From a virus: a stretch of 35,488 nucleotides of DNA. The DNA lies in IMG/VR virus record IMGVR_UViG_3300034110_000238, positions 1 through 35,488 of that record; one strand, given 5' to 3'. Below are positions 728 through 35,488 of the stretch, in pieces. The notes beneath the pieces were generated by a model, which was not told where the DNA came from, did not search any database, and saw only the letters and a list, made by a program, of their open reading frames with translations. Position 1 is the first letter of the stretch. Every line of letters begins with the position of its first letter. Position numbers and translations under genes: made by a program.

Positions 728-770
728 TGTAGCATAAAGTGCATAAAGCAGTAAGTTATGCGCAAGGCTA
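728..770 (-). repeat. possible degenerate attC-like element (I)
   Basis: A GCATAA/TTATGC stem (741-746 with 756-761, approximately) with a flanking TAG/CTA pair lies just beyond the stop of the 65-residue gene at 768. The core GTTATGC at 755-761 matches the GTTATG cores of the better elements C, D and E. The second arm is weak, so this is tentative. Confidence 0.3.
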
Positions 771-965
771 CTCTACTAGCAAAATTGAGTCCTCATCTTC
801 TTTGGCATTAGTTAGTAACTTAAAAAAAGATGAATAATTTAGCCCATTTTTTTCTAATACCTCATCAGTAATGTTGTCTATACTACCACAGTAAATAATC
901 TGTTCAGGTGAAATGCCTTCTTGCTTTTCACACTCATTTTCTTTGTTAAATGTAATTACTTTCAT
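768..965 (-). CDS. 65-residue hypothetical protein (cassette-like gene)
   Basis: The frame begins MKVITFNKENECEKQEG and is acidic, ending in DEDSILLVE. No family is recognised. It lies between the palindromic element A on its 5' side and the GTTATGC core at 755 on its 3' side, with the stop codon 10 bp from that core. The A-rich leader TTTAAAAATG fits Bacteroidota starts. The context marks it as a cassette-like accessory gene; function unknown. Confidence 0.5.
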   Translation of the reverse strand: MKVITFNKENECEKQEGISPEQIIYCGSIDNITDEVLEKNGLNYSSFFKLLTNAKEDEDSILLVE

Positions 966-1004
966 TTTTAAAAATTAAATTTAGTGCTGATAAACCGCCC
1001 AGCA

Positions 1005-1085
1005 CATAACAGCGGTTTGTGGTCATTAGCCCGACCACACAAGGCTTTGCTTCGCTAACGAACCACAAGCCGCAAAGCGTTAGCG
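1005..1085 (-). repeat. attC-like imperfect palindrome A
   Basis: Outer cores CATAAC (1005-1010) and GTTA (1079-1082) flank arms 1012-1023 (GCGGTTTGTGGT) and 1062-1073 (ACCACAAGCCGC), which pair 12 of 12 allowing one G-T. An inner TTAGC/GCTAA stem lies in the loop. Read on the minus strand it runs TAACGCTTTGCGG ... CCGCTGTTATG. The stop codon of the upstream gene (1080-1082) is the TTA of the core. Confidence 0.65.
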
Positions 1086-1298
1086 GCTATTTAAAAATTT
1101 TAATAGTGCTTCTTTCTCCGCTCGCTTACCTTCTTCGTAGCCAATACTCCTTATGTCTGAAATAAGTTTGTATAAAAGTATTGCCCTTTGATTACCTTCA
1201 ATGTTATTTATTATTTCAAACATCTTATGAAAGTAGTCTGTAAACGGAGCATTTCGCTCGCTCATTTCTTCTAAATCTTTAAATAATTTTTCTTGCAT
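1080..1298 (-). CDS. 72-residue helical hypothetical protein (cassette-like gene)
   Basis: A charged, probably helical protein opening MQEKLFKDLEEMSERNAP and ending KALLKFLNSR-like (EALLKFLNSR). No membrane segment or known motif. Its TAA stop at 1080-1082 is formed by the GTTA core of element A, and its start lies 40 bp from the core of element B. It thus spans one complete interval between two palindromes, like an integron cassette gene. Function unknown. Confidence 0.5.
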   Translation of the reverse strand: MQEKLFKDLEEMSERNAPFTDYFHKMFEIINNIEGNQRAILLYKLISDIRSIGYEEGKRAEKEALLKFLNSR

Positions 1299-1340
1299 GA
1301 TATTTTGTTTTTAAAATTTTTAAACAGTTCACTTCGTCCG

Positions 1341-1393
1341 CTAACACCGCATAAGCGGCATTAAAACGACCGCCTATGCGGATGCCGTTATGT
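1341..1393 (-). repeat. attC-like imperfect palindrome B (short form)
   Basis: Cores CTAAC (1341-1345) and GTTATG (1387-1392) flank arms CCGCATA (1347-1353) and TATGCGG (1375-1381), with an inner GCGG (1355-1358)/CCGC (1370-1373) stem and a small loop. At about 53 bp it is the shortest of the set. Confidence 0.6.
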
Positions 1394-1399
1394 GCAATG

Positions 1400-1597
1400 T
1401 TAAGACCGCTTCATAGTTTGAATGTAAGTTACTATTGATGCTATCGTAAATCCTACAACCGCAATCCAATTACCAATTAATATTGAGTAAATCATTCCTA
1501 ATTTACTCACAACGTAAAGCCACCAATAAACACTGCACATAACATCGGTTTTGCGTAATGCCTGCTGTGGTGCTTCATTCAAGTTTTGTGCTTCCAT
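1400..1597 (-). CDS. small membrane protein (cassette-like gene)
   Basis: The frame from ATG 1597 has 65 residues. The last 46, from the internal ATG at 1540, hold two hydrophobic stretches (about residues 24-38 and 44-58), ending in TYIQTMKRS, so it is probably an inner-membrane protein. The ATG at 1540 is part of the GTTATG core of element C, and the first 19 residues are encoded within that element. The original cassette gene may start at 1540, with the upstream ATG adding a leader fused in frame. The stop is 9 bp from the core of element B. No known family. Confidence 0.5.
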   Translation of the reverse strand: MEAQNLNEAPQQALRKTDVMCSVYWWLYVVSKLGMIYSILIGNWIAVVGFTIASIVTYIQTMKRS

Positions 1598-1668
1598 TTT
1601 TCTTTTGTTTAAAATTTGAGCATTAGTAATTCTATTACGGCACTAACGCAAAGCCGTGAACCGTTATG
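1538..1668 (-). repeat. attC-like imperfect palindrome C (long loop)
   Basis: Cores CATAAC (1538-1543) and GTTATGC (1663-1669) flank arms CGGTTTTGCGT (1546-1556) and ACGCAAAGCCG (1646-1656), 11 of 11 pairs with one G-T, extended by GCC (1560-1562)/GGC (1639-1641). The 75-bp loop holds the start codon of the neighbouring gene at 1597. Confidence 0.65.
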
Positions 1669-1882
1669 CGTAATGCTTTGCAAACCATTCGTAAAAAGGC
1701 AAATGTTTATCATCTACATTAGCAACATCCATATCACTATCGGTTTCTAATTGTTCAAATTTTCTTCCGTGTATAAATGCCTTTTTCATTTCCTCTCTAA
1801 AAAAAGCACTACGCATAACAGCAGATATAAGCAATTGCTCATCGCTGTTTTTAGGTTTTTGTTCTAATTCTGTGTTTTCCAT
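1664..1882 (-). CDS. 72-residue hypothetical protein (cassette-like gene)
   Basis: The frame begins at ATG 1882 and its TAA stop (1664-1666) is the GTTA core of element C. A second in-frame ATG at 1816 lies inside the GTTATG core of element D; the 50 residues from there (MRSAFFREEMKKAF onward) fill exactly one interval from core to core. The first 22 residues are encoded in the loop of element D. The protein is charged and ends LPFYEWFAKHYA; no known domain. Either start is possible. Confidence 0.5.
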   Translation of the reverse strand: MENTELEQKPKNSDEQLLISAVMRSAFFREEMKKAFIHGRKFEQLETDSDMDVANVDDKHLPFYEWFAKHYA

Positions 1883-1943
1883 TTTATCTAAATTTTAGTC
1901 ATTAATTAAAAGAGCAACTGCTCATATCTGCAAAACGTTAGGC
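1814..1943 (-). repeat. attC-like imperfect palindrome D (long loop)
   Basis: Cores GCATAAC (1813-1819) and GTTAGGC (1937-1943) flank arms GCAGATAT (1821-1828)/ATATCTGC (1924-1931), then GCAATTGCTC (1831-1840)/GAGCAACTGC (1912-1921) with a single mismatch. GTTAGGC fits the integron R core GTTRRRY. On the minus strand the ends read GCCTAACGTTTTGC and GCTGTTATGC. Confidence 0.7.
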
Positions 1944-2956: not shown

Positions 2957-3229
2957 TTACTTTTTAACTTTAAAAATACGATAGCCTTTGTCTGTTGTCC
3001 TTACACTAATTTTAAAACCATCATTTCTCCTTTGTGCAATAACAGACATTTTAGCTCTTACTGAGTTAGCTCTATCATAATCTTCAATCAAAAAACTATC
3101 ACCATCATTTAACTTATTGTAAAGTTTTTCAATTTCACCTTGTCTTTTGCTTGGAGGAGTAAACTCATTTGCTGTGTCGATTTTAATACCTTGTAAAAAA
3201 TCAACGCTGTACTTTTTGGTGTCAATCAT
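2957..3229 (-). CDS. DUF7303-like small phage protein
   Basis: The 90-residue protein carries EIEKLYNKLNDGDSFLIED, then a basic region (RAKMSVIAQRR) and the end SVRTTDKGYRIFKVKK. This order, 'L..GDSF', a basic helix, then 'k..vRt...G.RiwR', is the layout of a small protein family common in phages and called DUF7303, as far as I recall it. Its role is unknown, though the basic helix and final beta hairpin suggest nucleic acid binding. It is the first gene of the leftward unit, about 22 nt from the predicted start of transcription. Confidence 0.7.
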   Translation of the reverse strand: MIDTKKYSVDFLQGIKIDTANEFTPPSKRQGEIEKLYNKLNDGDSFLIEDYDRANSVRAKMSVIAQRRNDGFKISVRTTDKGYRIFKVKK

Positions 3230-3258
3230 AATGTTATTTTGTTGTTGTTTTGTGAGTA

Positions 3259-3290
3259 CAAATGTAAAGTAAAATACAAATACGTGTCAA
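3259..3290 (-). promoter_or_regulatory. leftward early promoter
   Basis: On the minus strand TTG (3290-3288), 21 bp, then TACATTTG (3266-3259): a full match to the Bacteroidota -33 TTG / -7 TAnnTTTG pattern. Transcription would start near 3253, about 24 nt before ATG 3229. Confidence 0.75.
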
Positions 3291-3346
3291 GTGTTTTGTA
3301 AAATATTTTTAAAATAATTGATAAAAAGTTTGTAAAGTGCTGTAAA
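3263..3346. promoter_or_regulatory. TGTAAA repeats, candidate operator sites
   Basis: TGTAAA occurs at 3263, 3297, 3331 and 3341; the first three are exactly 34 bp apart, and the first overlaps the -7 box of the leftward promoter. These could be binding sites for the Cro/C1-type protein at 2726. The A/T richness of the area makes chance possible. Confidence 0.35.
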
Positions 3347-3367
3347 TCAAAGTGAATGTTTTTAAAT

Positions 3368-3397
3368 AAAAAAGGGCTACCAAATAAATGATAGCCC
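3368..3397 (-). terminator. intrinsic terminator facing left
   Basis: Read on the minus strand, GGGCTA (3397-3392) pairs with TAGCCC (3379-3374) around a 12-nt loop and is followed by six T. No leftward gene lies upstream of it, so it most likely ends the short RNA that starts near 3445. Confidence 0.7.
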
Positions 3398-3445
3398 GAT
3401 TTCAACAAAACATTATGAAGATGCGGCATTGCACCGCTACTTGAG
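3368..3445 (-). ncRNA. putative ~75-nt small RNA
   Basis: A complete minus-strand promoter (3450-3481) and an intrinsic terminator (3368-3397) bracket about 75 nt with no convincing gene. The 5' end can fold as GCGG TGCAATG CCGC, followed by a single-stranded U-rich stretch and the terminator hairpin, a typical small-RNA layout. A reading frame starting MPHLHNVLLK crosses the terminator and is probably spurious. Targets are unknown. Confidence 0.5.
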
Positions 3446-3449
3446 TGAA

Positions 3450-3481
3450 CAAAAGTAAATAAATAAAGTTAGCTATTGCAA
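3450..3481 (-). promoter_or_regulatory. leftward promoter of the putative small RNA
   Basis: TTG (3481-3479), 21 bp, TACTTTTG (3457-3450), matching the Bacteroidota consensus. Its -33 TTG is the other strand of the palindrome TTGCAA that also supplies the -33 of the rightward promoter. Confidence 0.6.
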
Positions 3482-3505
3482 TGTTGTGAATAAGTAATAT
3501 ATTTG
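3476..3505 (+). promoter_or_regulatory. rightward early promoter
   Basis: TTG (3476-3478), 19 bp, TATATTTG (3498-3505), a full consensus match. Transcription would begin near 3510 and read a leader of about 255 nt before the first gene at 3767. Confidence 0.75.
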
Positions 3506-3598
3506 AAGTGGGGTTTAAATAAAAATCGTTTAATGTAATTGCAAGTTACAACCAGTTAAGCGATGTCTGGAAATGGGAATGTGGTTACACGTTCGACT

Positions 3599-3628
3599 AA
3601 GGCTGTGATTAATTTCACGGCCTTTTTT
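3599..3628 (+). terminator. intrinsic terminator in the rightward leader
   Basis: AAGGCTGTGA / TCACGGCCTT stem (8 pairs plus two A-T, one G-T) around TTAATT, followed by TTTT. It would end transcripts about 115 nt after the rightward promoter unless it is overridden. Confidence 0.75.
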
Positions 3629-3635
3629 ATTTTTC

Positions 3636-3666
3636 TTGCATTATTCAAAACTATTACTTTACTTTG
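3636..3666 (+). promoter_or_regulatory. possible second rightward promoter
   Basis: TTG (3636-3638), 21 bp, TACTTTG (3660-3666), one base short of TAnnTTTG. It lies directly after the leader terminator and would drive the replication genes. Weak match. Confidence 0.35.
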
Positions 3667-3712
3667 TGGCGTTGATGTACGTGCAGGTACTTAACCATAA
3701 CAAAGAAATTCG

Positions 3713-3760
3713 ACCTCGTAAGGTGGATGGGCTGCACCCCTGAAACCTTGCGGGGTTTTT
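3713..3760 (+). promoter_or_regulatory. possible attenuator before the first rightward gene
   Basis: ACCCC (3736-3740) can pair with GGGGT (3752-3756) ahead of a T tract, a terminator 7 bp before ATG 3767. AGGT (3721-3724) can pair either with ACCT at 3713-3716 or with ACCT at 3745-3748 inside the terminator loop, and GGTG with CACC overlaps the terminator arm. Such competing pairings are typical of attenuators; the trigger is unknown. Confidence 0.4.
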
Positions 3761-3766
3761 AATTTT

Positions 3767-4072
3767 ATGGAAGTTGAAAAACTAAAACAACAATTTCAAA
3801 CTTATCCATATAGCAGCGAATTTATTGATGCTGTTATTGAGATGAACCCAAGTGGCAAACCGTCAGAGGTTGCCAAATTTATCAGTGCTACATTTATGAA
3901 CAACCGAATTGAGGATTGTTCTAGTACAACATTTTTTAGGTTATCTAGGCATTGGGATAACATTGCTAACCAAAAGATTCAAATGTTAGATTACAACTCT
4001 TTTTTTAGGTCGGCATTTACAAGCACAAAATATTTTGCAGTTGCCACACTTTTAAAAAGTAAGGGGATTTAG
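3767..4072 (+). CDS. hypothetical protein, first gene of the rightward unit
   Basis: The 101 residues begin MEVEKLKQQFQTYPYSSEF and contain SGKPSEVAKFISATFMN, with alternating helical stretches and no membrane segment. No family is recognised. The gene ends 3 bp before the helicase-loader-like gene and lies behind a probable attenuator, so it may be a replication accessory or early regulator. That role rests on position alone. Confidence 0.6.
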   Translation: MEVEKLKQQFQTYPYSSEFIDAVIEMNPSGKPSEVAKFISATFMNNRIEDCSSTTFFRLSRHWDNIANQKIQMLDYNSFFRSAFTSTKYFAVATLLKSKGI

Positions 4073-4075
4073 TAA

Positions 4076-4753
4076 ATGAATAGCTACGAACTTAGTCGGG
4101 CTTTTTGCAACTGGGCTTTTGAAAACCCCGAAAAAATTAAACCTATTCATTACGCTATTTACTTTTTTACTATTGAGCACTGTAACCGTTTAGGGTGGAA
4201 GGAGAAATTTGGGCTACCTTCACAAATGGTTATGGAGGCTATTGGGGTAAAAAATTGGCGGACCTATTCCGAAGGATTAAACGAGTTAATATCATTTGGG
4301 TTTTTAACCATGATTGAAACGAGCAAAAATCAATACTCAAGCAATATAATTGCCATTGTAAATTTTACCAAAGCACCTACCGAAGCAGGCACAAAAGCAT
4401 TAGACAAAGCACTGTCAAAGCACGGTACAAAGCAAAGCCAAAGCACTGTTAGTATAGATAAACAATTAAACAAAGAACAATTAAACAAAGAACAATTAGA
4501 GAAACGCAAATTGGAATTTGCTTCCACGCTCGAACCATTTTTAAATACTTACGGTAAAGAGTTATTAAAAGACTTTTACGACTATTGGACCGAACCAAAC
4601 AAATCAAACACTAAGTTTAGGGCTGAGATAGAAAAAACTTGGAGCCTTGAAAGAAGATTGGCAACATGGGCTAAAAACGATAGTAAGTTTGGCACACCTA
4701 AACAAACAGTACCACAACAAGGACAAATGAATTATAAAGACTTAAACGTATGA
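4076..4753 (+). CDS. replication initiator / helicase loader-like protein
   Basis: The 225-residue protein has a winged-helix-like N-terminal region (about residues 1-95), a low-complexity linker with KQLNKEQLNKEQLEK (about 128-142) and a C-terminal helix block containing FYDYWTEPNKSNTKFRAE and WSLERRLATWAKND (about 160-205). This layout, with the conserved FYxYW...K.RFE..k.W....RL..W pattern, is found in phage replisome organisers that bring DnaB to the origin. Its stop overlaps the ATG of the dnaB gene in an ATGA, so the two are translationally coupled. Function is inferred from layout and neighbour. Confidence 0.65.
   Translation: MNSYELSRAFCNWAFENPEKIKPIHYAIYFFTIEHCNRLGWKEKFGLPSQMVMEAIGVKNWRTYSEGLNELISFGFLTMIETSKNQYSSNIIAIVNFTKAPTEAGTKALDKALSKHGTKQSQSTVSIDKQLNKEQLNKEQLEKRKLEFASTLEPFLNTYGKELLKDFYDYWTEPNKSNTKFRAEIEKTWSLERRLATWAKNDSKFGTPKQTVPQQGQMNYKDLNV
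4461..4499 (+). repeat. 15-bp in-frame tandem repeat
   Basis: The unit aacaattaaacaaag is present about 2.6 times and encodes the QLNKE repeats in the linker of the loader-like protein. Copy number could vary without breaking the frame. Confidence 0.8.
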
Positions 4754-12394: not shown

Positions 12395-13562
12395 ATGAAA
12401 CTGAACCCAAACTTTATATTTATAGAAAAAAACATAAACGATAAGCGCGTGCTTGCTCTACAGGGCGGCACGCGTTCGTGAATCTGGTAAGACCTACTCA
12501 GTACTTCAATGGTTAATACGCCAATGTATGCAGTATAAAGGTATGACTATTTCTGTAGTTCGTGCTACGTTACCAGCATTAAAGAGTTCAGCTATGCGCG
12601 ACTTTGTGGAGATACTAACTAACTTAGGCTTATACTCTGAAAGCCAACACAACATGACTGAAAACGTTTACACGCTAAACGGGAATACAATCGAGTTCTT
12701 TAGCGTAGATAACGAGCAGAAGTTAAGGGGTCGAAAACGAGACCTTTTGTTTGTGAACGAAGCAAACGAAATAACACTTGAGCAGTGGAGACAATTAGTG
12801 TTTAGAACCACAGGCCGAATAATAATAGACTATAACCCTTCGATGGTTGACTCGTGGATATACGACCATGTAATAACACGGGAGGATTGTGGCCTATTAG
12901 TTACGACTTATAAGGACAACCCACACTTAAGCGAGTATATCATACGAGAAATTGAAGCCTTGCAAGATGCTGACCCTGAATATTGGAAAGTGTTTGGGTT
13001 GGGAGAGCGCGGGCAGTTAAAAGATTTAGTTTTCAATAATTGGGCTCAAGTGCCTGAAATGCCGCAAGATGCAAAACTAATCGGTTACGGAATGGACTTT
13101 GGGTTTAGTGTTGACCCAACCACGTTAATTGAAGTACGCCAACAGAATGGTGAGTTATGGTTACGTGAAGTATTGTATCGTACCAACATGACTAATACCG
13201 ATATAGGAAACTTTTTAAAATCAGTACCTATTATTCGTGATGAAATAGTGGCGGATAGTGCAGAGCCAAAGTCAATTGAGGAAATAAGGAGGCAAGGGTT
13301 TAATATTCAACCAGCCATGAAAGGGCCTGACTCAATCAATAACGGTATAGACATTTTAAGGCGGTACAAAATGAACGTTACTCAAGATAGCTTAAACTTA
13401 ATTAAGGAGTTAAGGTCATACAAGTGGGCAACGGATAAAGATGGTAAGGCAACAGGCAAGCCAGTAGACTACATGAACCACACAATAGATGCCTTAAGAT
13501 ATTTGGCACTTAATAAATTGAACAACAGACCACGAGGCGTTTACAAGCTAATCGGGTTTTAG
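12395..13562 (+). CDS. terminase large subunit, frame broken in the Walker A motif
   Basis: The frame from ATG 12395 reads MKLNPNFIFIEKNINDK and VLALQGGTRS, then TGA at 12479-12481. The downstream frame picks up with ESGKTYSVLQWL. Removing the 7 nt 12479-12485 (or an equivalent 7) gives GGTRSGKTYS, a regular P-loop. The ATPase part has Walker B RDLLFVNEANE and the nuclease part has YGMDFGFSVDP, DSAEPKSI and MNHTIDALRY, all as in Terminase_3-type motors. It pumps DNA into the prohead and cuts it. The break may be a real mutation, an assembly error or a recoding site. Confidence 0.85.
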
Positions 13563-13594
13563 CAAATTTCACGGCTTATTATATTTTAAGTTAT

Positions 13595-14188
13595 ATGATA
13601 AGCGACTACAAAAATCTTACTATTAAGCAATTTTTAAACTGCAAGCGAATAAGCGACACGGTGCAAGACCCTATTGACCGTAATGTTAGGTTGTTGGCAG
13701 AGATAACGGATAGGACCGTTGACGAAATAGAGAGCCTACCACTTGGGGAATTAAAGGAACAGCTAAAGCAATTAGCCTCGATTGAAACTATTGATACCAA
13801 CCAAAAGCTAAAACTTAAATTCAAAATAAAGGGTAAGAGGTTTGAGGTGATTTGGAAGGCTCAGGAGTTGACCGCTGCTCAGTACATAGACGTTACCCAC
13901 TTTGCAAAGGATAGTACACAAGTAATTTACAACATTCATAATATGTTAGCTGCAATAAGTGTAGAGCGCACATGGTACGGTAAGCGTAAAAAGTACGATG
14001 GGGCAAAACATAAAAAGATTTCGGAGTTGTTTTATAACCACATGACAATAGAGCAAGCATACCCTATCATGCTTTTTTTTTGCAAGTTCTACGAGGAATT
14101 GGCAAACAATATCCTAACTTATTTGAGCGAGGAAGCGAAGTCGGTGATCGAGAAAGTGGAAGCGGATTTTGGGAGAAATACGGCATAA
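13595..14188 (+). CDS. tail assembly chaperone, zero-frame product
   Basis: The 197-residue protein begins MISDYKNLTIKQFLNCKRIS and has DPIDRNVRLLAEITDRTVDE and LPLGELKEQLKQL, a pattern of tail assembly chaperones in Bacteroidota phages. These bind the tape measure protein before tail polymerisation. The gene holds a nine-T run at 14073-14081. The zero frame continues past it to a stop at 14188, while a -1 slip gives the longer protein, as in the lambda G/GT pair. The gene follows the terminase, whereas such chaperones usually lie directly before the tape measure gene. Confidence 0.75.
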   Translation: MISDYKNLTIKQFLNCKRISDTVQDPIDRNVRLLAEITDRTVDEIESLPLGELKEQLKQLASIETIDTNQKLKLKFKIKGKRFEVIWKAQELTAAQYIDVTHFAKDSTQVIYNIHNMLAAISVERTWYGKRKKYDGAKHKKISELFYNHMTIEQAYPIMLFFCKFYEELANNILTYLSEEAKSVIEKVEADFGRNTA

Positions 14189-31089: not shown

Positions 31090-31133
31090 AAAGGTATATC
31101 GAGAAGCCTCGTTATCATTGAAGTGTTACCTTT
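31090..31133 (-). terminator. weak hairpin between converging transcripts
   Basis: AAAGGTA (31090-31096) pairs with TACCTTT (31127-31133), with an inner CGAG/CTCG hairpin. It lies between the end of the rightward late unit and the end of the leftward unit, where a shared terminator is expected. The flanking T tract is short on both strands. Bases 31023-31153 hold no other recognisable feature except the GTTATGC core at 31153. Confidence 0.35.
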
Positions 31134-31153
31134 AGGGTACGCATATTAAGAAG

Positions 31154-31309
31154 TTATGCCCAATAAAAGTTGATAGCCTTTCCATCCTTACCTTTACGGA
31201 GTTTCTTGTTCATCAATCGTTTAATCTTCTTTTTTAGCTTTCGGTTTTTACGTTTGTTCTTTACAAATCTGCACTGTTCACAAGTGCATACAAATATTTT
31301 ACTGGGCAT
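31154..31309 (-). CDS. 51-residue basic protein with CxCxxC (cassette-like gene)
   Basis: The start is ATG 31309 (MPSKIFVCTCEQCRFVKNKR). The CTCEQC motif at residues 8-13 could bind zinc. The remainder is very basic (NRKLKKKIKRLMNKKLRK), ending KDGKAINFYWA. Its ATG lies within the GTTATG core of element E, and its TAA stop within the GTTATGC core at 31153, so it fills exactly one interval from core to core. It is probably nucleic acid-binding. The longer frame from a TTG at 31339 is less likely. Confidence 0.6.
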   Translation of the reverse strand: MPSKIFVCTCEQCRFVKNKRKNRKLKKKIKRLMNKKLRKGKDGKAINFYWA

Positions 31310-31402
31310 AACAGCGTGTTTATGCAAGCGGGCGGACAACTTGCGGTTAATAATTAAAGTTCGTGCTATGCCCGCCTGACATAAACACGCAAAACGTTAT
31401 AG
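31307..31402 (-). repeat. attC-like imperfect palindrome E
   Basis: Cores CATAAC (31307-31312) and GTTATAG (31396-31402) flank perfect arms GCGTGTTTATG (31314-31324) and CATAAACACGC (31380-31390), then inner arms GCGGGC (31328-31333) and GCCCGC (31370-31375). The clearest of the set. Ends on the minus strand: TATAACGTTTTGCGTG and CACGCTGTTATGC. Confidence 0.75.
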
Positions 31403-31409
31403 CCAATAG

Positions 31410-31805
31410 CTACCATTCACGGTCAACACCGACTTGTATGAAGTCAACACTTTCCGAATAATAACCATTTGATTCTCCGTACCAACGAATATCTACATAC
31501 CCTTTTATCGTTGCTAATTTGTAAAATGTCCAAGTACAAGAACCCCAATCATTTGCTTCTTTGGTTTTTTTAATGTCTTCTTCGGAAGTAGGTTCGTAGT
31601 TTGAAACTTCTTCGGCTGTTAATATTGGTGTTCCGATTAAGTCATTCAAATCTCCGTTAATATCTTCAATTGAAACACTTTCACAGCAATCTTGTCCGTG
31701 ATACATTTTATATTGTGTTCCATCGTCAACGATAAAAATTAACTCATCGCCATTGTTTTTAATTTCGGCAAGTGTTTTACCTACTAAGTCTTTAAATTCT
31801 GCCAT
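31410..31805 (-). CDS. DUF7448-like protein (cassette-like gene)
   Basis: The 131 residues begin [20 protein letters not shown] and contain [20 protein letters not shown] and [20 protein letters not shown], then [16 protein letters not shown]. The HGQDCCE...V.iedi.Gdl and T.TFYk.aT.kG..d.RW.G.SNGYYSe pattern is the signature of a small protein family (DUF7448 in my recollection) found in scattered bacteria and phages; its function is unknown. The stop lies 10 bp from the core of element E and its start 48 bp from element F. Confidence 0.65.
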
Positions 31806-31850
31806 TATATTTGTTTTTAAATTAAGTTTCTATTAATCAATCCGCTACTG

Positions 31851-31954
31851 GCTATAACAGCACCTTAGCGTCAGTTTTTGGCTATTTAGTTTATCGGTAA
31901 ACTTGAACATTTCGGTAAGCCAAAAACCGAACGCCAAGCCGCAAAACGTTAAAT
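31851..31954 (-). repeat. attC-like imperfect palindrome F
   Basis: Cores TATAAC (31853-31858) and CGTTA (31947-31951) flank arms GCGT (31868-31871)/ACGC (31931-31934) and GTTTTTGGCT (31874-31883)/AGCCAAAAAC (31918-31927). Inner AGTTT/AAACT hairpin. On the minus strand the left end reads TTTAACGTTTTGC, the same as in D and E. Confidence 0.7.
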
Positions 31955-31960
31955 GAAAGC

Positions 31961-32200
31961 TCAATACGACCCCCCGAAAGTTCGTGGCAGACATTTAACA
32001 AGCTGTTTTATTTCATCTTCTTCTAACTTTATAGTTGTTCCATTTTTACTTATAACCATTTTCAATCCCTTTGACCAGTGAACCCATTTATCAGCATCAT
32101 CCATATCAATTAGTGAGTATGCGTGTACTGAAAATGAGCCTTCATTTAACACTATATTGCCATCATTACGGCTTTCCTTTGTTTTTTCAACTGTTTGCAT
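31961..32200 (-). CDS. 79-residue hypothetical protein (cassette-like gene)
   Basis: The protein starts MQTVEKTKESRNDGNIVLNE and has a mixed beta pattern (FSVHAYSLIDMDDADKWVHW, then MVISKNGTTIKLEEDEIKQL). No family recognised. The stop lies 10 bp from the GTTA core of element F, as with the other cassette-like genes. Function unknown. Confidence 0.5.
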   Translation of the reverse strand: MQTVEKTKESRNDGNIVLNEGSFSVHAYSLIDMDDADKWVHWSKGLKMVISKNGTTIKLEEDEIKQLVKCLPRTFGGSY

Positions 32201-32245
32201 ATATTTAGCTTTTAATTGTTATTGAACTTTTGTTTTATAATGTCG

Positions 32246-32271
32246 TAACGAACGGCAATACTTTTACGTTA
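32246..32271 (-). repeat. minimal attC-like remnant (G)
   Basis: TAACG (32246-32250) and CGTTA (32267-32271) form a 26-bp inverted repeat with a very small loop. The TTA at 32269-32271 is the stop codon of the NinG gene, the same arrangement as elsewhere in the array. Confidence 0.35.
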
Positions 32272-35289: not shown

Positions 35290-35488
35290 CTAATCTCGCT
35301 TTTTAATAAACTTTTTTTGCATTGACGATACTGATAACTCGCACCTTCTAAATTGCTCTGAGTAAACCTTATCCCAAGTCATAAGGTCGAATAGTGTTTG
35401 TATTCTCGTTATGATAGTGCTGTGATCAAGCCCACCAAGTTCAAGCCCTACTTTTTTAGTTCCAAAAGGAGTATAGTAATACATTAAG
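35290..35488 (-). CDS. DnaA domain IV-like protein (3' part)
   Basis: The same protein as at 1-342 but seen on the other side of the circle junction. In this copy it covers the last 64 or so residues: YYTPFGTKKVGLELGGLDHS, TIITRIQTLFDLMTWDK and the tail SVSSMQKKFIKKRD, stop at 35290. The four differences from the first copy (127, 130, 139 and 142 against 35461, 35464, 35473 and 35476) all fall in third codon positions and change no residue. Confidence 0.75.
   Translation of the reverse strand, partial: LMYYYTPFGTKKVGLELGGLDHSTIITRIQTLFDLMTWDKVYSEQFRRCELSVSSMQKKFIKKRD
35335..35488. repeat. terminal direct repeat of 1-154
   Basis: Bases 35335-35488 match 1-154 with four differences, all within 127-142, while bases 1-126 are identical. 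Such an overlap indicates a circular or terminally redundant molecule, or a circularly permuted assembly. Confidence 0.9.

Follow-up and report, generated by a model that had tools for sequence, protein, structure and literature searches.

Two integron-like cassette arrays without an integrase in a tailed phage, and related arrays in Bacteroidota chromosomes

To our knowledge, integrons have been described mainly in the Gammaproteobacteria and hardly at all in the Bacteroidota, the phylum that is dominant in water, soil, and guts. A survey of the Bacteroidetes with IntegronFinder 2.0 found In0 elements and, in Salinibacter ruber, a single complete integron (PMC9024848). IntI1 recombines the attC sites of virulent phages, including one site of a Polaribacter phage (PMC9892861).

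The DNA analyzed here is a viral stretch of 35,488 bases (the window) that carries two blocks of hairpin sites and single-gene cassettes. Matches to PHROGs families across the window include a DnaB-like helicase, terminase, portal, tape measure, exonuclease, and NinG, and the DNA is therefore that of a tailed phage. The reading frames at the two ends of the window (35290–35488 and 1–342) resemble a single gene split by the cut. It is therefore probable that the record is a whole genome in circularly permuted form, with about 5 kb between the two blocks on the circle. A first-pass annotation made from the sequence had described the left block as an array of integron-like cassettes that a phage carries without any integrase. 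That description holds up: a search of all 35,488 bases found no integron-type recombinase. Rfam gave no match anywhere in the window.

Hairpin sites and cassettes in the phage genome

A search for AACGTTTTGC..GCTGTTATG gave 36 stretches in viral contigs and 13 in species genomes, mostly Bacteroidota. From this seed search came the covariance model R1, which rests on 49 diverse sites from other genomes, viral contigs, and related loci, with none from the window. Run over the window with filters off, R1 recovered blind the palindromes A–D in the places first claimed for them (E 4e-12 to 7e-7), together with sites E, F, and G of a right block that belongs to the same system (Table 1). The other matches in the window are weak, with the opposite strand of site E at 17.8 bits and the next at 14.6 bits. 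Relative to shuffled sequences, the six good sites reach z scores of -2.3 to -4.9 when folded as single-stranded DNA (plus strand).

Read on the gene-coding strand, the sites have the form TAAC-GTTTT-GC(stem)..(stem)GC-T-GTTA and are thus asymmetric, with a spacer of 5 nt (GTTTT) on one side and of 1 nt on the other. All 11 of the 11 stem pairs vary on both sides, and 95.5% of cells are paired, compared with 26–47% when slid, a measure that is biased toward pairing because most of the sites had been selected by a scan that required it. Site D carries GTTAGGC, as had been seen at first pass, and so fits the R box (GTTRRRY/RYYYAAC), which the other sites, with GTTATGC or GTTAAAT, do not match. 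The core GTTA is constant, and the remaining bases of the R box are free but complementary within the cassette. The core of site G (32268–32271) overlaps the stop codon of NinG, so that the right array abuts this gene.

Both blocks have two or more sites separated by less than 4 kb and no integrase in the vicinity, which is how a CALIN is recognized; there are four sites in 1.0 kb on the left and two or three in 1.0 kb on the right. The sites themselves are called attC-like here, short of proven attC sites. R1 found no match, at E values up to 10, in four class 1 integron loci, which suggests that these are not classical attC sites. Of the attC and cassette layout proposed at first pass, the part that stands is the cassettes that run from core to core, and the part that probably does not is the identity of the sites with classical attC.

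With sites A–G as boundaries, the two blocks fall into seven cassettes of one gene each. The four left-hand genes of Table 1 and a further gene at 1957–2193 all end 0–17 bp from a core, in agreement with the first-pass description. A Pfam search of the cassette genes found no family except DUF7448.

Table 1. Sites, cassettes, and array starts in the 35,488-base window
Feature	Position	Strand	Details
attI-like start, left array	735-758	+	core GTTA 755-758; placed by its complementarity to the R' flank of site A
Cassette 1	756-1079	canonical +	bounded by cores; start TGCGC and end GCACA pair at 4/5 positions
Cassette 1 gene, 65 aa	768-965	-	no Pfam match
Site A (attC-like)	1007-1082	-	R1 45.0 bits, E 4e-8
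Cassette 2	1080-1387	+	gene 1080-1298 on minus, stop codon within core
Site B (attC-like, short)	1342-1390	-	R1 39.5 bits, E 7e-7
Cassette 3	1388-1663	+	minus-strand gene 1400-1597 with its start codon in site C; ends TGTGCAATGTT/AACACTGCACA complementary
Site C (attC-like)	1540-1666	-	R1 55.4 bits, E 2e-10; loop contains start of gene 1400-1597 (ATG at 1597)
Cassette 4	1664-1937	+	gene 1664-1882 on minus, start inside D, stop in C core; ends TGCGTAATGC/GCACTACGCA complementary
Site D (attC-like)	1816-1940	-	R1 62.4 bits, E 4e-12; loop contains start of gene 1664-1882
attI-like start, right array	31133-31156	+	core GTTA 31153-31156
Cassette 5	31154-31396	+	ORF 31154-31339 on minus; ends TGCCCAATAAAA/TTTTACTGGGCA complementary
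Site E (attC-like)	31309-31399	-	R1 51.4 bits, E 1e-9
Cassette 6	31397-31948	+	gene 31410-31805 on minus, DUF7448 (Pfam PF24240, E 6.5e-33)
Site F (attC-like)	31855-31951	-	R1 50.1 bits, E 3e-9
Cassette 7 (decaying)	31949-32268	+	minus-strand gene 31961-32200 that starts within site G; ends AATGAAAGCTCA/TGAGCCTTCATT complementary
Site G (degenerate attC-like)	32147-32271	-	R1 17.2 bits, E 0.09; fold z -0.2

Relatives of the phage differ at these places. Both blocks are absent from two of them (L093 and L090), a third (L100) has a different array with four sites and a methyltransferase-like gene, and L092 and L097 have other arrays again. In the segment comparison of these relatives, no segment was common to the window and the arrays of L092, L097, and L100.

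The cassette as the unit of exchange

The bases that follow GTTA at the start of a segment are complementary to those that precede the next TAAC. Among 84 chromosomal segments, a few of which are counted twice through overlapping loci, positions 1–5 of the two ends pair in 96–99% of cases, compared with 40–68% in shuffled segments. Positions 8–11 pair in 76–87% (44–71% when shuffled), and position 7 never pairs. In the 70 viral segments, positions 1–5 pair in 83–90%. Pairing between the two flanks of a single site does not exceed the shuffled level. The ends of the same segment pair and the flanks of the same site do not; therefore, the segment is the unit, and only the excised circle would show the full palindrome.

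The plus strand is called canonical here because most cassette genes in Bacteroidota chromosomes read with it. Seven usable pairs of homologous segments found in different contexts have the hairpin on the canonical 3' side in common (96–100%) and not the other hairpin; no pair shares the neighbor's hairpin instead, and one shares neither. The seven come from three independent families, namely a tandem copy in one genome (G056), a cassette found in three genomes, and cassette 6 in the window and in the viral locus L191; an eighth was left out as one locus held twice. The ownership of the hairpin at the canonical 3' side points to exchange at G/TTA beside the 5-nt spacer, as in integrons.

Cassette 6 illustrates the boundaries well. 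Together with site F it recurs at 92% identity in L191, an unrelated virus of 89 kb, where the homology spans the TAAC of F to the TAACG of E and then stops, with unrelated flanks. The gene segment of the same cassette is found at 98% in L190, again with homology that ends at the cores, and this DUF7448 cassette is without most of its hairpin. The gene segment of cassette 2 is found at 88–89% in L270 and L271, where homology stops at the TAACG core and the hairpin is not shared, and in L271 hairpin F is attached to another gene. This indicates that a hairpin and its gene can part. No target duplication was seen in the alignments of shared cassettes. At the level of sequence, these comparisons establish the sites, the cassette as the unit, and past exchange of whole cassettes.

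Other loci add further observations. One chromosomal array (L174, G056:C8) contains the same cassette segment twice, at 3138–4084 and 13203–14149, with 100% identity including the hairpin, which appears to be a sign of recent activity. A cassette whose gene product begins MK(T/A)D(N/K)KLIGAGLLTAIAASLCCITP is 97–98% identical across L174, L171, and L180, with a hairpin that is 98–99% identical, and is on these identities a recent transfer. A hybrid site at L021:124–173 joins the left arm of one hairpin family to the right arm of another; it could be a product of recombination inside sites or an assembly chimera.

The orientation of the gene within the cassette separates the phage arrays from the chromosomal ones. 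The gene is reversed relative to the site in 66 of 70 viral cassettes compared with 7 of 75 chromosomal ones, and it lies in the canonical sense in 68 of the 75 chromosomal cassettes, some of them double-counted through overlapping loci, compared with 4 of the 70 viral ones. With the gene antisense to the site, the phage cassette genes read with the leftward genes of the phage. The site would then stand at the 5' end of the gene and often supply its start codon. Open ATG codons in the frame of the gene occur in 35 of 51 long viral sites, mostly in A-rich contexts, versus 20 and 10 in the other two frames, so the start codons inside sites are partly due to chance.

Arrays and recombinases in Bacteroidota chromosomes

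Of 247 genomes from one Bacteroidota class, that of the Flavobacteriales MAG G003, 167 contain sites that match R1, in arrays of up to about 20 sites. The first-pass view that the phage belongs to a group in which integrons are not the norm is contradicted by how common such arrays are. In the chromosomes the palindromes also flank single genes, as dividers of one-gene cassettes that there lie beside an integrase, in line with how the left block had first been read.

A tyrosine recombinase adjoining sites was found first in two genomes, L084 and L082, and a profile was built from their proteins. At E ≤ 1e-45 the profile matches in 27 of 35 array genomes versus 3 of 19 siteless ones, and at 1e-100 in 18 versus 0, where the array genomes were chosen as site-rich and the counts ignore kinship. 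In G202, a single contig of 3.47 Mb, 17 of the 20 sites lie on one strand within 35 kb (109,953–145,036), and the recombinase gene is found at 146,593, 1.6 kb from the end of the array. In G240, the contig that bears one of its two recombinases also holds 22 of its 23 sites. The arrays occupy one strand beside the recombinase gene, and two layouts exist, in which the gene either reads into the array or diverges from it. In these genome comparisons, the association of sites and recombinase in chromosomes is clear. A further recombinase, in G001, lies 3 kb from a site and was dropped as a candidate; it sits beside an IS91-type transposase gene.

In 17 of 17 aligned array-linked recombinases the catalytic residues R, K, HxxR, H, and Y are conserved, and all 17 are without the IntI-specific insertion (the additional domain around patch III). 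A single IntI over the cut-off was found among 295 genomes, and this sole true IntI of the class, in L060, has the insertion. The recombinases of L084 and L082 score 199–205 bits with the IntI model, below its cut-off of 265. As a group, the array-linked proteins score about equally with the XerA, XerD, and integron models, and XerA is their best structural relative by sequence. In a tree of recombinases, a first group forms one branch (99/95), with less clarity for a second group and weak support for the position of IntI. Most of the array-linked proteins begin with about 90 additional residues that form a conserved N-terminal domain with two invariant Trp residues (e.g., L084:3867–4166), which might bind the folded site. 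By eye this part had suggested a HARP domain, an assignment that was rejected, with only weak DUF5710 matches in Pfam and nothing useful in the PDB. In two types of phages a related recombinase gene lies close to the array (L009/L018, at L009:173–1006, and L072, at L072:1216–2055, record L028), and these recombinases form a separate branch in the tree.

The starts of the arrays were located solely through the complementarity of cassette ends. A position weight matrix of the 20 bases before the core was made from all 14 integrase-adjacent chromosomal starts. On leave-one-out, the true start ranks 1 in 12 of the 14 chromosomal loci, and among viral loci it ranks 1–3 in 11 of 14. In the window, the right start ranks 4 and the left start 11 of 881 GTT[AG], with neither first, and at three viral array starts (L021, L028, and L009) the matrix did not find the motif. 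The attI-like starts would be the places that receive cassettes, with exchange at the left start presumably between 755 and 756. The presence of such a start would make each block more than a cluster of attC sites.

A candidate integron lineage and the systems it resembles

The two blocks are likely to be integrase-less integrons of a Bacteroidota-specific type, served in trans by a recombinase of the host or of a co-infecting element. Each block would consist of an attI-like start (~755 and ~31153) followed by single-gene cassettes in the plus direction, every cassette extending from the G/TTA of one site to the G/TTA of the next with its own asymmetric hairpin at the end. A tyrosine recombinase of the array-linked type, supplied by the host or a co-infecting element, would excise cassettes as circles, which rebuilds the full palindrome, and the circles would be inserted at the attI-like or other sites, probably through a folded single strand. 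It is the chromosomal type of recombinase that we infer to move the phage cassettes, using folded single strands; the integrase would then reside in the phage's host, and the phage may benefit. IntI1 recombines one site of the Polaribacter phage (PMC9892861), so a classical IntI could also act here. The N-terminal domain of the recombinase and the asymmetric spacer set the system apart from known integrons and count against reading the blocks as integrase-less integrons, as do the ranks of the two attI-like starts and the parting of hairpin and gene seen with cassette 2 and hairpin F. On balance, we lean toward a broader version, in which the Bacteroidota have a widespread integron lineage of their own, with asymmetric sites and recombinases that never had the IntI insertion, and phages represent integrase-less branches with reversed cassettes, start codons within the recombination site, and a trade in single genes through the host enzyme during infection.

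Several alternatives have to be weighed. It is unlikely that the blocks are fossil CALINs, with cassettes acquired once and then spread among phages by homologous recombination and with no present site-specific reaction. A phage without an integrase would fit such a history, as would the decay of site G and the DUF7448 cassette of L190 with most of its hairpin missing. Relatives of the phage, however, have different cassettes or none, the homology of the L191 cassette stops at the cores between unrelated flanks, and six of the seven sites are intact. There is also little reason to expect ordinary integrons here, with classical attC sites on which IntI acts. While IntI1 recombines attC sites of virulent phages (PMC9892861), and the Polaribacter phage in question has sites related to those described here (best 22.5 bits), R1 does not match the class 1 loci, the spacers are of 5 and 1 nt, and one IntI over the cut-off in 295 genomes of the class stands against sites in 167 of 247.

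Modules in which genes are flanked by sites of the host Xer recombinase, as with dif, are a very improbable reading. The roughly equal scores of the array-linked recombinases with XerA/XerD and integron models speak for it, but the sites are hairpins of 49–128 nt with an attI-like partner rather than short dif sites, and the tree separates the dedicated recombinase from the Xer group. Small MITE-like transposons with inverted ends GTTATGC...GCATAAC and one gene each are scarcely credible. Every unit does have inverted complementary ends, of 9–17 nt, but the units stand head to tail with a hairpin between them, on one strand per array and beside a tyrosine recombinase; their ends vary between units yet match within a unit, and shared cassettes align with no target duplication.

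If the integrase-less arrays and their chromosomal counterparts are a working integron lineage, much single-gene exchange among the Bacteroidota would have gone unseen, because searches demand IntI and classical attC. Recombinases that lack the IntI insertion would bear on how integrons recognize folded DNA, and the existence of phages that have attI-like sites and no enzyme of their own suggests a traffic of cassettes between phage and host.

A search of the open-access literature found no description of this system. With XerA/XerCD-dif it shares the recombinase fold, but dif is a single, short site of about 28 bp and the sites here are long hairpins in arrays. It is like the classical integrons, i.e., class 1 and the sedentary chromosomal integrons of Vibrio, in its tandem single-gene cassettes, its G/TT core, an imperfect palindrome of about 50–130 bp per cassette, and an array on one strand that begins near a tyrosine recombinase gene with a candidate attI-like start. 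It is unlike them in a recombinase that lacks the IntI insertion and mostly carries about 90 extra N-terminal residues, in the 5- and 1-nt spacers, and in a complementarity of cassette ends that extends past the 7-bp R box.

A known phage of comparable make-up is Polaribacter phage P12002L, with six weak R1 matches between genes (13–22 bits, best 22.5, versus 39–62 in the window). Its genes are on the same strand as these matches, as in the window, and the loop TCGTTTTAATG of site B recurs in one of its sites. The CALIN of P12002L is likewise a set of integrase-less cassette sites in a virulent Bacteroidota phage (PMC9892861), and the site that IntI1 recombines is related to those of the window but different in form. 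That paper, as far as available, does not report an attI-like start or complementary cassette ends, and it draws no link to the array-borne recombinases of Bacteroidota chromosomes. The IntegronFinder 2.0 survey (PMC9024848) concerns the same phylum; here, sites are found in two thirds of the sampled genomes of one class, beside a recombinase that the IntI cut-off rejects.
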